Below, piece by piece: positions 25,048 through 34,515 of a DNA stretch of 64,000 bases. The stretch is from Salinimonas profundi (GTDB taxonomy: Bacteria > Pseudomonadota > Gammaproteobacteria > Enterobacterales > Alteromonadaceae): assembly GCF_014750655.1 (NCBI RefSeq), contig NZ_JABBXD010000003.1, forward strand, positions 62,001 to 126,000. Reading direction: 5' to 3'. Position 1 is the first letter of the stretch, and every line of letters begins with the position of its first letter. Under the pieces are notes generated by a model. It was not told the origin of the DNA. It worked only from the letters and a program-made list of their open reading frames with translations, and did no database searches. The translations under genes and the position numbers were made by a program.

Positions 25048-25935
25048 ATGGATAAACTCACGCAAATGCGCACCTTCGTTACCGTGGTGCAGACCGGCAG
25101 TTTTACTCAGGCTGCGTTGTCGCTGTCAATATCATCCCAGCTGGCCAGTAAGTATGTCAGTGCGCTTGAAACAGCATTAGGTGTCAGACTTCTGGCCCGC
25201 ACTACCCGCCGGGTTCATCTTACAGAAGCCGGTGAGCGTTACCTGCCAAAGGCCAGACATATTCTGGACGAGCTGACCGCGCTGGAAGATGAGCTTAGTG
25301 GGTTGCAAACACACGCCCGCGGTACGCTGCGTATCAGTGCGCCGGTTTCCTTCGCCGTCTCACAAATGGGTAAGCTGATTACCGATTTTCAGGCCCAGCA
25401 TCCGGCGATTTCTGTTGATTTGCAATTAAATGACCGTAAAGTGAATATTGTTGAGGAAGGGTTTGATGTTGCATTACGGGTAGGCACGCTGGAAGACTCA
25501 TCCCTGATCGCCAGAAAAATCACGCCGATAACCATGGTAATTTGCGCGTCACCAGACTACCTGTCCAGGTATGGAGAGCCTATGGAGTGGGATGAGCTGA
25601 AACAGCATCGTGTGTTACGCTATTCCTATACCACTACCGAACCCAGACTGATAGCCGACAACGATGGGGCGCTAGTCTGTAATAACGGGGATTTTCTGAC
25701 CCAGAGTGCTGTTGCTGGCGCAGGTATTGTTATTCAGCCATCATTTATTGTAGAAGGCGCCATAAGATGCAATGCGCTGAAGGCTATCCTGACACACTGT
25801 GCACCGCCACCATTGGGCTTATATGCCCTTTATGCGCATCGAACGCTGATGACCAGTAAGTTGCGGGCGTTTATTGATTTTATCAGCGATTACTACGGCG
25901 ATCCGCCTTACTGGGAGCAAGGCCTGTATAAATAG
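25048..25935 (+). CDS. LysR-family regulator divergent from doxX
   Basis: 295 residues. The N-terminal winged HTH ('GSFTQAALSLSISSQLASKYV', about 17-37) is followed by an effector-binding domain with 'RGTLRISAPVSFAVSQMG' and 'FDVALRVGTLEDSSLIARKI'. This form belongs to the group that controls neighbouring divergent genes, here doxX. Ligand unknown. Its stop is only nine bases from the truncated ppiC copy that follows. Confidence 0.9.
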   Translation: MDKLTQMRTFVTVVQTGSFTQAALSLSISSQLASKYVSALETALGVRLLARTTRRVHLTEAGERYLPKARHILDELTALEDELSGLQTHARGTLRISAPVSFAVSQMGKLITDFQAQHPAISVDLQLNDRKVNIVEEGFDVALRVGTLEDSSLIARKITPITMVICASPDYLSRYGEPMEWDELKQHRVLRYSYTTTEPRLIADNDGALVCNNGDFLTQSAVAGAGIVIQPSFIVEGAIRCNALKAILTHCAPPPLGLYALYAHRTLMTSKLRAFIDFISDYYGDPPYWEQGLYK

Positions 25936-26313: not shown

Positions 26314-29300
26314 TCAGTGGATCCAGTACATACCCATGGAGGTACCAAACAAAATTTCCAGTGTGCCATCGGCTTTTTCATTTGCCTTTAGCGAAGCCGC
26401 GTCGGCACTGCCGACGAGTTCCGGGCTGGACCAGATGACATGGCCATCGGCGGTAACACTATGGATCCTTGAGCTAGTGGCCCCCCAATGCTGACCGTTA
26501 CTTGATGCAACAATAAAACGTGTTGCATCGCTGGGATCTAAAACAATATCTCCCACATTGATATCTAAAGAGACGTGGTCGAGATTACTCAACTCTCCAT
26601 CCTGCAACGTCATCGTGCGCCAGTAATTATTGTCGTAAGCACCCCAACATACCAAGCTACGGGACTCACCTTCACCATAGATTAACACGTTGCTACATTC
26701 GGTATTCTCTATAGCACCGTGTGCTGAGAACGAACTTTCTCCCATTGTCAGCACCTGTAACAGGTCGTACTGAGAAACCACAACGGTGAGCGTGCCATCG
26801 ATCATAGCAATATCAAGGTCAACTATATTGTCGCCGAAACTGTAACTGGCCAATTGAATCTGGTTCTGCACATCCAGTACTTTAATCTTGCTGCCATCAA
26901 CAACAATGGCATCATCATAGCCATCGCTATTCACATCCATCGCTTTAATTTGGCGGATCTCAGTATTGTGATCGCCAGTTACTGTCCACTGTGCAGTCAT
27001 ATCACTTAAACGATAAACACCGAAACCGTCCGTAAAAGGTCCCGCGGTGGGCAGAAAAATATCACCCATGCCATCGTTGTTGTAATCTGTCGTGGCACTA
27101 TAACGGCCGTTGCGCCAACCCGATGACAGGTCGCTGTTGACGGTCATCTCTCCGGTATCAGTAAGAGTAACGACCGCTAAACCATCGTAGCTACTTCCAG
27201 TGGTAGGCACCATAAACACACCACGCCTGTCACCTGGAAAAATATCAGACCAGCCTGACGCGGTGAAACTATCCAGCTGTACATCTGATGTTTCAGACTT
27301 AAGTGAAGCAGAGTTACTCGTGATATCTGCAGTCACTAATACATTTGCGCCAGAGCTGCTGACACCACTTCCCCACAGTACTTCATTCACGCCATCGTTA
27401 TCGATATCGCCCACGGTCAGCGATGTCGAGCCGTGATCCCGCAAATCTACAGCCCAAAGTACTTCTAGCTGATTATTGCTATCCAGGGTATAAGCGGTTG
27501 CATTACCCCACTGGCAGTCACTGATAATTAGCTCATCGGTGGTGTCTTTGTACAGATTAAACGCCTGAACATCACAGGTATCTTCCACAGCCTGAGAAGC
27601 CAGTTGAGATTTAGTGACCGCGTCAAAGACGTACATGTTGCTCCAGTTGTCGACACCCACAATTTCATCAATGCCATCACCGTTCAGATCACCTGCGGTC
27701 ACAAAAGAATTACCAAACCCGGTGCCCAAATACCATTCGTTTGCACCGGAAGTGAGGTCATAAACCAAACCGTTGTTCAGCACCAGCTCCAGATTGCTAT
27801 CGTCGTCGACATCACCTACAGCCATATCGTCAATCTCATCCGTCTGAAACATATGGATTTCTGAAAATTCGTCATCCAGTTCGGCTACAACGATGGTATT
27901 AGCGTCTGATGTATATTCATTAGGCGCGTAACGATAGATGATTTCTTCAGCGCCATCATCGTCCATATCAGCCAGTAAAGCGCTACGTAAATATTCTTCA
28001 GTCTCGAAAATCTTACGTGCGGGCCGATTCAGATCCTCAATCAGCCACATATTATGCTCGCTGAGGACCAGGATCTCAGGCGTGCCGTTCTGATCCATAT
28101 CCACCGGCAGCACCTGAACAATACGCTGTTCCGGACTTATGGCATAAGGATAAGCCCATTTTTGTTGATACTTTCCGTTTTCCAACGCCAACAGGAAGAT
28201 ACGCGCATAGTTATCTGTACTCAGCAGTTCATTGCGCCCGTCATTGTCGAAATCTGCCACCCACTGAGATTTGTTCGTTGTCGGCACTTCGATTCCTGTT
28301 CGGAAAAGCGGCATACCCTTATCACTGCTGACAGATAGGTTAAAACTCTCTTCAATATGATTGTTCGGATCTAATTTATTGCTGAAACCAAACGTATATT
28401 CCTGGTGGCTGAACAACAGGTTGTCTGGTACTTGCCAGGTTACCGTACCGTCGTCTGACATGGTGGCGCCTTCCGGTGCTGCTGTTAATGCAGCGAGGTT
28501 GCCGTCTCCACCGATGTCTGCATTAGTAAGCACAACAGAAAAGGTGACGACATCACCCTGCGAAATCTCTTCAGGCACATCGCTTACAGTAAGTTCTGAT
28601 CGCGACTCTTCAAAATTTATGAATTCTTCCCAGGATTCTGTGGTGTAGGTGCCGTCAGAGACTAACATCGTGACATAAACATAATCACTGGTTCTGGCTG
28701 AGTACGCTGGCAGCGTGTCACCATGAATGTCATCCAGTAACACGCCATTAATGTACCAGTTGTAGGATATGTCTAGCTTTTCCTTTGGCGTTTCGTAATC
28801 GAAATAGTATCCGGGTGCCACTACTATGTCGGATGAAGCAACTACGCGCTCTGTCACAACATTCAGACCTTCAGCTCCTGGCGGACTGGAAAGCTCATCC
28901 AGCGGTAATAAAGTCAATTCGCTGATTGGTGACTCAAGAAAGTTGTATATATCTTCAATGCGTCCGGCGTCTTTTTCACCATCATCATCGGTATCGGCGA
29001 TGTAGACCACTGCGTCGTTGACAAAATTAAGAAAGGCTTCATCATCGTTCAGATAAAAAGCGGAATTATAAAGATATGGAAGATTTAGTCCGTCAGCCGA
29101 TAGGGAAAAATCGACATATCCTCTGGAGCCAATACTCATTCGCCCATCAACAGACGTAACATTAGACCGGTCGGTCTGGCTAATTTTCTTATCAGAATCA
29201 ATGAGGTAAGTTTCGCCTTCAATTCTTGCCGTCAGATACTGACTTCTTGAACTGTAATAATTGCCAGTTTCTAAATCATAGTCTTCATTGAAAGACATCA

Positions 29301-29953
29301 TGCCGGACAATGATATCGCTTTGTCCTGCTTCCAGTTTAAGGCATCGAAGTATATGGAATAACGCGCGCCAAATACGTCCTTATTATCATAAGAAATACC
29401 CGCCACACCTGATATAGCAAATTCATTGCTGTATAAAAGACAGTTATCAAACACCATAGTCATTCTGCCAGTGCCGTTTGCTTCGAACTGCCCACTGTAA
29501 ATAACGCTGCCGCCAAGATCACAGTCGAATTCAGCATCAATTAGACCGCTCTCGTTGAGAACGCTATCCGTAATATCACCATGCAGGGACAGTTCAGGTA
29601 CCACGAATAGATTATCGTCAAACATAATACGATAAACTTGCTGCGCCAGCGCAATATCCAGAACTGCTTTCTCAGTACTGCCGCTATACGCGTTTTCGGC
29701 CAGTGAATGGCCTGCGGTTTTCCATTGCTCGGTAGAGTAGGACTTTGCATCGGCTATAATTTGCGAAGGCGTAGCTTCGACACCCTGCTCGGTATCTTCT
29801 GGTGGGGGAGGACTATTTTCTGGCGGCGTATTATCTTCGGGGGGGGGGGATACTTCCCTCTGATGGGGGTGAACTATCACCGGAACCACCGCCACAGGCA
29901 ACCAACATCATGCTGGCCAAAACAACCAATAATGCATATTTTAAGAATTTCAT
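26314..29953 (-). CDS. FG-GAP/VCBS-repeat surface lipoprotein, out of frame at a C11 tract
   Basis: From ATG 29953 (AGGG six bases upstream) the frame reads MKFLKYALLVVLASMMLVAC, a lipoprotein signal with lipobox LVAC and acceptor Cys20. It then runs through a Pro/Ser/Gly linker into eleven C (29839-29849 on the plus strand as G) and stops at 29831. One base fewer in the tract joins it to the long frame that runs to 26314. That frame holds a Pro/Glu linker, a unique domain (about 40-330), a calcium-loop-like 'DTDDDGEKDAG', PKD/cadherin-like β domains and about eight FG-GAP/VCBS repeats with Asp-rich loops ('GDLNGDGIDEIVG', 'GDIDNDGVNEVLW'). These resemble integrin-α β-propellers and adhesion or carbohydrate-binding surface proteins. 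As read, the exported protein is OFF. Confidence 0.82.
29839..29849 (-). repeat. Homopolymer G11/C11 tract in the lipoprotein 5' coding region
   Basis: Eleven G on the plus strand (C on the coding strand). In the signal-peptide frame the tract must hold 10 or 13 bases (1+3n) to join the downstream frame; 11 gives a stop nine bases later. Such tracts change length by slippage and are classic contingency loci. They are also error-prone in sequencing. Confidence 0.9.
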
Positions 29954-30315
29954 TTTCATCCCTGATACTTACAACGACACCCTTATCGCATATAAATAGT
30001 ACATCAAATAAAGTTGTGAAATCGAGTTGTAAATGATGTTTATGAGTAAAAAATGAAGCAGCGAGAGCCTCTGTCGTTGGTATCTTGAGGCTTACTTGGC
30101 TGGGACATGCTATTTGTAGGGAAAGTGCTGGAAAGAAGTCGGTATAACGCAAAGCATGCATAAACACCGGTTATGATTGAAACATGACTAGCAAAATATA
30201 CATAAGGGCAGCCAGCGATGATTGCGAGGTAAAATTACCAATTTTTAGCTCTTCAATTGGTAATTTCGCGATTGAGATTCACCGAATCCTGGCTGAAATG
30301 CTGAATATACCAGAA
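29954..30315. other. Upstream region of the lipoprotein gene
   Basis: About 360 bases. It must hold the lipoprotein promoter. A 66-codon plus-strand frame (30184-30384) runs into ppiC antisense and matches nothing I know. A perfect 12-bp inverted repeat lies at 30232-30266. Confidence 0.5.
30232..30266. repeat. Perfect 12-bp inverted repeat
   Basis: AAATTACCAATT (30232-30243) and AATTGGTAATTT (30255-30266) are exact complements separated by 11 bases. There is no T run on either side, so it is not a standard terminator. It lies about 50 bases beyond the ppiC stop and about 300 bases upstream of the lipoprotein start, in the locus bracketed by ppiC ends. Confidence 0.75.
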
Positions 30316-30591
30316 CTAACTGCGATACAGCGTTTTTATCAGATGAAAGCCAAATTTGGTTTTTACCGGGCCGTGCACCTGTAGCAACGGCTTTTTAAAA
30401 ACGACGTCATCAAACTGCTTTACCATCTGACCACGACGAAACTCACCCAGGTCCCCGCCGCGTTTACCAGAAGGACAAACAGAGTGGCGCTTCGCTAGCG
30501 CAGCAAAGTTTTTGCCTTTCTTCAGCTGTTGAAGGATGGCAAGCGCTTCTTTTTCTGTTTTGACCAGTATGTGTAGTGCTGCAGCTTTCAT
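30316..30591 (-). CDS. ppiC: Peptidyl-prolyl cis-trans isomerase C (parvulin)
   Basis: 91 residues, a single free-standing parvulin domain close in length to E. coli PpiC (93). Motifs: '[13 protein letters not shown]' at the start, '[20 protein letters not shown]' (about 35-54) and a C-terminal '[12 protein letters not shown]'. It speeds proline isomerisation in cytoplasmic protein folding. The 3' half is duplicated in diverged form at 25944-26090. The usual Tyr in 'GYHLI' is Phe here but Tyr in the remnant, so the intact copy may be the acquired one. Confidence 0.93.

Positions 30592-32856: not shown

Positions 32857-34515
<1,659 letters not shown>

Follow-up and report, generated by a model that had tools for sequence, protein, structure and literature searches.

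A C11 run between the lipoprotein signal and the FG-GAP body of a Salinimonas profundi gene, and its possible phase variation

In a 64-kb stretch of Salinimonas profundi DNA (the whole stretch analysed, hereafter the window), the lipoprotein signal of an FG-GAP gene runs into eleven consecutive C and soon meets a stop codon, and the body of the gene continues in another frame. This locus raises the question of whether the gene is phase-variable and whether its run is a contingency switch kept by selection, or whether the run has another origin, such as slippage in a variable linker, an artefact of sequencing or early gene loss.

The frame break and the gene

The C11 homopolymer was read directly from the sequence, at positions 29849–29839 of the minus strand. 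The features of the gene are as follows.

29831–29953, minus strand: short frame with start codon, signal peptide, LVAC lipobox with Cys20, Pro-rich linker and premature TAA (from the sequence; start backed by homologues)
29839–29849, minus strand: C11 homopolymer (from the sequence)
29800–29890, minus strand: approximate extent of the Pro-rich linker, from the lipidated Cys to the first conserved segment, hypervariable and of low confidence (disordered) in the model (from homologues and the structure model)
26314–29838, minus strand: FG-GAP lipoprotein body, in another frame than the signal and open to its natural stop (from frames, Pfam and homologues)

Translation from the ATG at 29953 gives the product MKFLKYALLVVLASMMLVACGGGSGDSSPPSEGSIPPPRR (40 aa), in which an LVAC lipobox with Cys at residue 20 was recognized by reading the sequence. 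Cys20 is followed by a Gly/Ser and Pro-rich linker, the C11 run and a premature TAA at 29833–29831, in that order. The original prediction had placed a lipoprotein signal at this ATG, and the reading frame and the starts of homologues confirm it; the entry of the frame into eleven C likewise holds, but the stop follows after 8 bases, its own three included, and not after nine. A second in-frame ATG lies at 29959, 6 bases upstream. We favour the start at 29953, because the homologue L013 has AAG at the position equivalent to 29959, and the called starts of the homologous proteins P0002, P0004 and P0006 agree with it.

The FG-GAP body does not share the frame of the signal; about 1,170 codons are open from the C11 to the natural stop at 26314, and the C11 was the sole frame defect seen in the gene. 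Counted from its first TTG, the long frame (29901–26314) encodes 1195 aa and carries FG-GAP_3, with Pfam matches to PF13517 (67.3 bits, cut-off 26.9) and PF01839 (26 bits, cut-off 22.1). The corresponding scores of P0002 were 60.5 bits and 20.5 bits, the latter under the cut-off, and P0002 matched 0 families in NCBIfam. The called protein, P0001, begins at a GTG in the body frame, by which the lipoprotein signal is lost. A structure model of the long frame gave a mean pLDDT of 82.4 and a pTM of 0.65; the first 41 residues, which hold the linker, were mostly below 50 and the rest mostly above 70, and the linker is predicted to be disordered. A sequence search of solved structures with A2 (22 rows) returned 0 matches at E ≤ 0.01, and Rfam gave 0 matches within the 64-kb window. 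Scanning of 29700–30320 found no promoter, and one weak terminator-like site upstream of the gene (30071–30055).

Homologues and the state of the body

P0002 is the closest relative among the matches listed (84% identical; 8 member sequences, source ENA; protein only), the protein searches having scored the 7999 candidates that shared most words. It reads MKFLKY...LVACGGGSGDSSPPSEGSIPPPEDN in one frame, with linker residues nearly identical to those of the window gene. With codons drawn at the usage of the window, the chance of an all-C coding for the Ile-Pro-Pro-Pro of P0002 is about 0.3%; the other Pro pairs in the linker of the window gene have mixed codons.

The frame was followed through the linker in 21 of the 24 genus loci outside the own genome, leaving out two inner pieces of the G027 homologue (L024, L032) and an end fragment (L031), and in 18 loci of other genera, three further other-genus matches being without a locus. 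A lipobox-like motif (by a simple pattern) with in-frame reading through the linker was present in all 39 loci (21 genus and 18 other-genus). In 20 of the 21 genus loci, the frame continues for over 400 aa, counted from the lipobox Cys; among them are L020, which has a late stop, and L030, a distant match of 25% identity; the 21st, the broken G027 homologue, reads for 169 aa. All 18 other-genus loci read through. The longest runs in the genus linkers were of 3–5 bases (2 in one locus). Preservation of the C tract in orthologues had been set beforehand as a test of the switch, and this expectation failed among the homologues with DNA read: a C/G run of at least 8 occurred in 0/24 genus loci, where the longest was 7, and an in-frame C/G run above 7 in 0/18 other-genus loci. 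Because the homologue linkers vary freely in length and make-up, the linker is a hypervariable spacer. When sister strains and the DNA of P0002 were sought in genome contigs, only loci of Alteromonas confluentis and A. indica matched, and a scan of viral contigs for the same gene gave no match.

The gene has matches in 23 of the 59 genus genomes, the own genome included (two of them weak and partial), with members in Alteromonas confluentis (G009), A. indica (G015) and Salinimonas lutimaris (G020); the other 36 had no match at E 0.001. By this distribution, the FG-GAP lipoprotein gene is accessory. The homologue of G027, another species, is in three pieces (L024, L032 and L033) with a wide gap and a frame change, and the gene has probably been lost there. 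Three neighbours in the window could be compared with those of the orthologues.

30316–30591, minus strand: PPIC-type peptidyl-prolyl isomerase (PPIase) beside the gene; a similar gene lies on the opposite side of the A. indica orthologue (from Pfam and neighbourhood comparison)
25048–25935, plus strand: LysR-type regulator; a comparable gene is found close to the orthologue in A. indica (from Pfam and neighbourhood comparison)
32857–34503, minus strand: presumed groEL, found in the vicinity of the orthologue in A. indica as well (from neighbourhood comparison; named by eye)

In A. indica, the homologue has groEL on one side and, on the other, successive genes for PPIase, LysR, DoxX and an oxidase-like protein. 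The PPIase of the window lies towards groEL, with other genes in between, so that the neighbourhood is partly common; the A. confluentis homologue has different neighbours. The presumed groEL also contains, in the part encoding its Gly-Met-rich tail, a 9-base tandem repeat of 4.4 copies (32863–32902).

Relative-rate tests over the body gave 58 private changes for the window gene versus 54 for P0002 with P0003 as the outgroup (chi2 0.14), and 32 versus 40 with P0004 as the outgroup (chi2 0.89). Radical changes made up 12/58 versus 9/54 and 2/32 versus 6/40 of these, respectively. There was no sign in these comparisons of faster evolution of the window gene body than of P0002, and dN/dS was 0.08–0.19 in 8 chosen homologue pairs. 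Since there is no sign of gene decay, the out-of-frame state would be either recent or reversible, two conditions that the relative-rate test, being blind to very recent loss, does not separate.

C/G runs in the window, the genome and the genus

The C/G runs of at least 6 in the window were three of length 6 and the C11. Markov models of order 1–5, fitted on the window itself, predicted 0.0008–0.024 C/G runs of at least 11 per 64 kb. In a weaker test, the number of places matching C8 (4 in the window) was reached by 8/100 dinucleotide shuffles. Genome-wide, the expected number of runs of at least 11 was 1.1 for independent bases, 0.05–0.51 for orders 1–4 and 1.5 for order 5; a C11 is therefore not astonishing in a genome-wide search, and what is notable about this one is where it lies and what it does to the frame.

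The own genome (4.07 Mb, 30 contigs) holds 55 bounded C/G runs of length 7, three of length 8, and one each of lengths 9, 10, 11 (the C11 of the window) and 13. Such a flat tail after a sharp drop would be expected from slippage growth, as far as so few runs can indicate. The repertoire was checked at runs of at least 8, the 55 runs of length 7 being counted only. Two runs of 8 fall within genes, gspH and cas1f, both in frame, and the remaining runs of 8, 9, 10 and 13 are all outside evident genes; apart from the FG-GAP gene, none was seen to be broken by a C/G run of at least 8. The run of 13 (L034, 3094–3106, contig C13), for which no role was seen, is longer than the C11.

A stretch of 76 G at the very end of contig C7 of the own genome (L035, 189966–190041) is a probable assembly artefact. 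Poly-G artefacts are typical of two-colour Illumina sequencing, and this contig end hints at such data.

Across the genus, long C/G runs were scanned with a pattern that catches lengths 11 and 12 and only part of length 10. It matched at least 21 places in 17 of the 59 genomes, two of them in the own genome; reading frames were examined in full for 9 of the 21 places, and the rest were checked for stop-to-stop frames. Four long genes read openly through runs of 10–11, encoding a sigma-54 regulator, a glycosyltransferase, a tmcA-like protein and an RND pump. In another species, a G11 (1502–1512 of L052, genome G055) seems to split a small membrane protein with no Pfam match, which suggests that frame-breaking runs may exist elsewhere in the genus. 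A G10 (1504–1513 of L037, genome G004) lies just before the ATG that starts a DPP-IV-like peptidase frame, and its length could affect the start or spacing of the peptidase. One run (L046) is at a contig end, and at the remaining places outside the own genome the stop-to-stop frames did not exceed about 175 codons. Taken as a whole, the genus runs look more like chance origin and slippage than like a genus-wide switching strategy.

Origin of the run and its meaning

In its excerpted text, a Neisseria survey (PMC1097732) sets a threshold of more than 6 for C/G runs inside coding regions, grades such a run as a strong phase-variation candidate when it is the sole source of a frameshift, and lists lgtG, with a C11, as known to be phase-variable. 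The present C11 exceeds that length, and the gene is otherwise intact, with no other cause of a frameshift seen in it. Two features that are usual, though not obligatory, for phase-variable genes were absent here: the run was not kept among the homologue DNA read, and several such genes were not seen in the genome at C/G runs of at least 8. On rates, excerpts describe an exponential climb of G:C run mutation with length in P. aeruginosa (PMC3837008) and, in C. jejuni, 1e-4 to 1.6e-3 per division, with a tendency of runs of G11 or longer to shrink (PMC8355987). C. jejuni is without functional mismatch repair according to the latter text, whereas Salinimonas profundi has mismatch repair genes: mutS matched over the whole profile, and mutL over 390 of 555 profile positions in an open frame of 592 aa. 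As these genes are present, slippage may be slow, and its rates in Salinimonas profundi are probably lower than those of C. jejuni. The C11 is likely to be slippery and reversible.

The explanation that we favour, with somewhat better than even confidence, is that the C11 is a recent, lineage-specific run grown by slippage in the hypervariable linker of an accessory FG-GAP lipoprotein, which makes the gene phase-variable physically, with selection unproven. In the proposed sequence of events, slippage inside the Pro-rich linker would have lengthened the C run recently and in one lineage, and the length reached in the sequenced clone would part the lipoprotein signal from the body. Because this length separates the two, the main product would be the 40-residue peptide and the gene essentially OFF. 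Given that a run of this length can slip and that no other defect was seen, cells that differ in run length and frame state should arise, and the gene would thus be phase-variable as a physical property, with nothing to indicate that selection built or keeps the run. We infer the slippage growth, the reversibility, the OFF phenotype and the lack of selection for the run from these data. The original prediction called the gene OFF as sequenced; it is out of frame as assembled, and the OFF phenotype would follow, perhaps with some leakiness.

That leakiness touches the least probable of the rival explanations, to which we give very little credence: decoding despite the break, in which a +1 ribosomal shift at CCC-CGA or transcript slippage on the C run would yield small amounts of the full lipoprotein. 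Read in the short frame, the C11 and the bases that follow it give CCC CCC CCC CGA; a +1 shift leads into the body frame, and CGA is a minority Arg codon in the window (10%). CCC-C is described in the excerpted text of PMC4519876 as +1-prone, with shifting of up to 1% when it stands as codon 2 of a reporter in E. coli, but the same source has the UGG proline tRNA favouring a +2 shift on CCC-CG and +1 shifting poorest on CCC-C among the four CCC-N. No stimulatory RNA structure was found near the C11 (z 0.59), and no run of this kind occurs in the homologues examined. A programmed +1 frameshift site was rejected on the absence of a stimulatory structure and of such a run in those homologues, and with neither structure nor conservation the site would be at most incidentally leaky. 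OFF may accordingly mean a low rather than a zero amount of full lipoprotein, the gene being perhaps slightly leaky.

A selected contingency locus, in which the C run is kept since ON/OFF expression of a surface lipoprotein is useful (towards phages, grazers or attachment), we consider rather unlikely. The length of the run, its site just past the lipobox and its status as sole defect match known phase-variable genes such as lgtG, the body is without decay, and P0002 has nearly the same linker in frame. Against it stand the lack of C/G runs of at least 8 in the genus homologue loci, the in-frame or extragenic position of the other long runs of the own genome, and the presence of mutS and mutL. 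An artefact of sequencing, PCR or culture, with a true or wild-type length that keeps the gene in frame, has a small chance of being right. The assembly does have the 76-G contig end, PCR alone may create length variation at C/G runs of at least 11 (excerpted text of PMC1097732), and 39/39 homologue loci examined are in frame; however, the poly-G sits at a contig end, away from the C11, and since both C8 runs inside genes of the own genome are in frame, no systematic run error is seen, on two cases only. We regard as improbable to a like degree an early pseudogene, that is, a single frameshift in a dispensable gene heading to loss, the reversal of which would be without consequence. Early gene loss and phase-OFF look alike in one genome, and the lack of a match in 36/59 genus genomes and the G027 homologue in pieces are what dispensability would give; with no second lesion and no rate acceleration, such a pseudogene would have to be recent.

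The sole frame defect, the normal-rate body and the reading through of P0002 speak for the phase-variation switch originally predicted, and the lack of a run in the homologues read and of a second broken gene weighs against it. Because of this lack, and because mismatch repair genes are present, the label of a classic contingency switch is unproven, and the C11 is neither demonstrated to be a contingency locus nor conserved as one in the homologues read. An ON/OFF homopolymer switch of this lipoprotein of about 1,200 residues, in a mismatch-repair-bearing marine bacterium and with a C run common with the P0002 lineage, seems unlikely to us.

The gene can be compared with several known systems. 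In Neisseria and Campylobacter, contingency genes that vary by slipped-strand mispairing at homopolymers (e.g. lgtG) likewise have a C/G run of phase-variable length near the coding start, as sole frameshift, in a gene for a probable envelope protein, but here there is no second locus at C/G runs of at least 8 and no run in homologues. Other FG-GAP lipoproteins of Alteromonas, Salinimonas and Pseudoalteromonas ('FG-GAP repeat domain-containing protein') have the same lipobox, low-complexity linker and FG-GAP body of about 1,150 residues, whereas only the window member, of those examined, has the C run and an out-of-frame signal. In Pseudoalteromonas atlantica, a related marine bacterium, phase variation of extracellular polysaccharide is controlled by IS492 (cited in excerpts of PMC2536512); there too an envelope trait is turned ON and OFF reversibly, but by movement of an insertion sequence, where the candidate here is a homopolymer. 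Frameshifting by +1 at Pro CCC-C, whether spontaneous or programmed, is alike in the in-frame codons and the direction of the shift, and differs from the present site in that structure and conservation are lacking here. The open-licence titles and abstract openings consulted, among which subscription papers are mostly missing, held no homopolymer phase variation in this marine genus group.

If the run does not vary, the locus would be a plain frameshift, with the caution that gene callers hide such cases, as the GTG start of P0001 illustrates. If the DNA of P0002 also has a C run, the run would date back further and would have been retained over a protein divergence of about 16%, favouring selection. 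If the length of the C11 varies in nature, this would be a phase-variable lipoprotein of the marine genus group and a natural test of whether contingency loci begin as neutral runs in low-complexity linkers. Should the switch be true, the range of such loci would reach beyond host-adapted pathogens and take in free-living marine bacteria, in which they might serve escape from phages or grazers.
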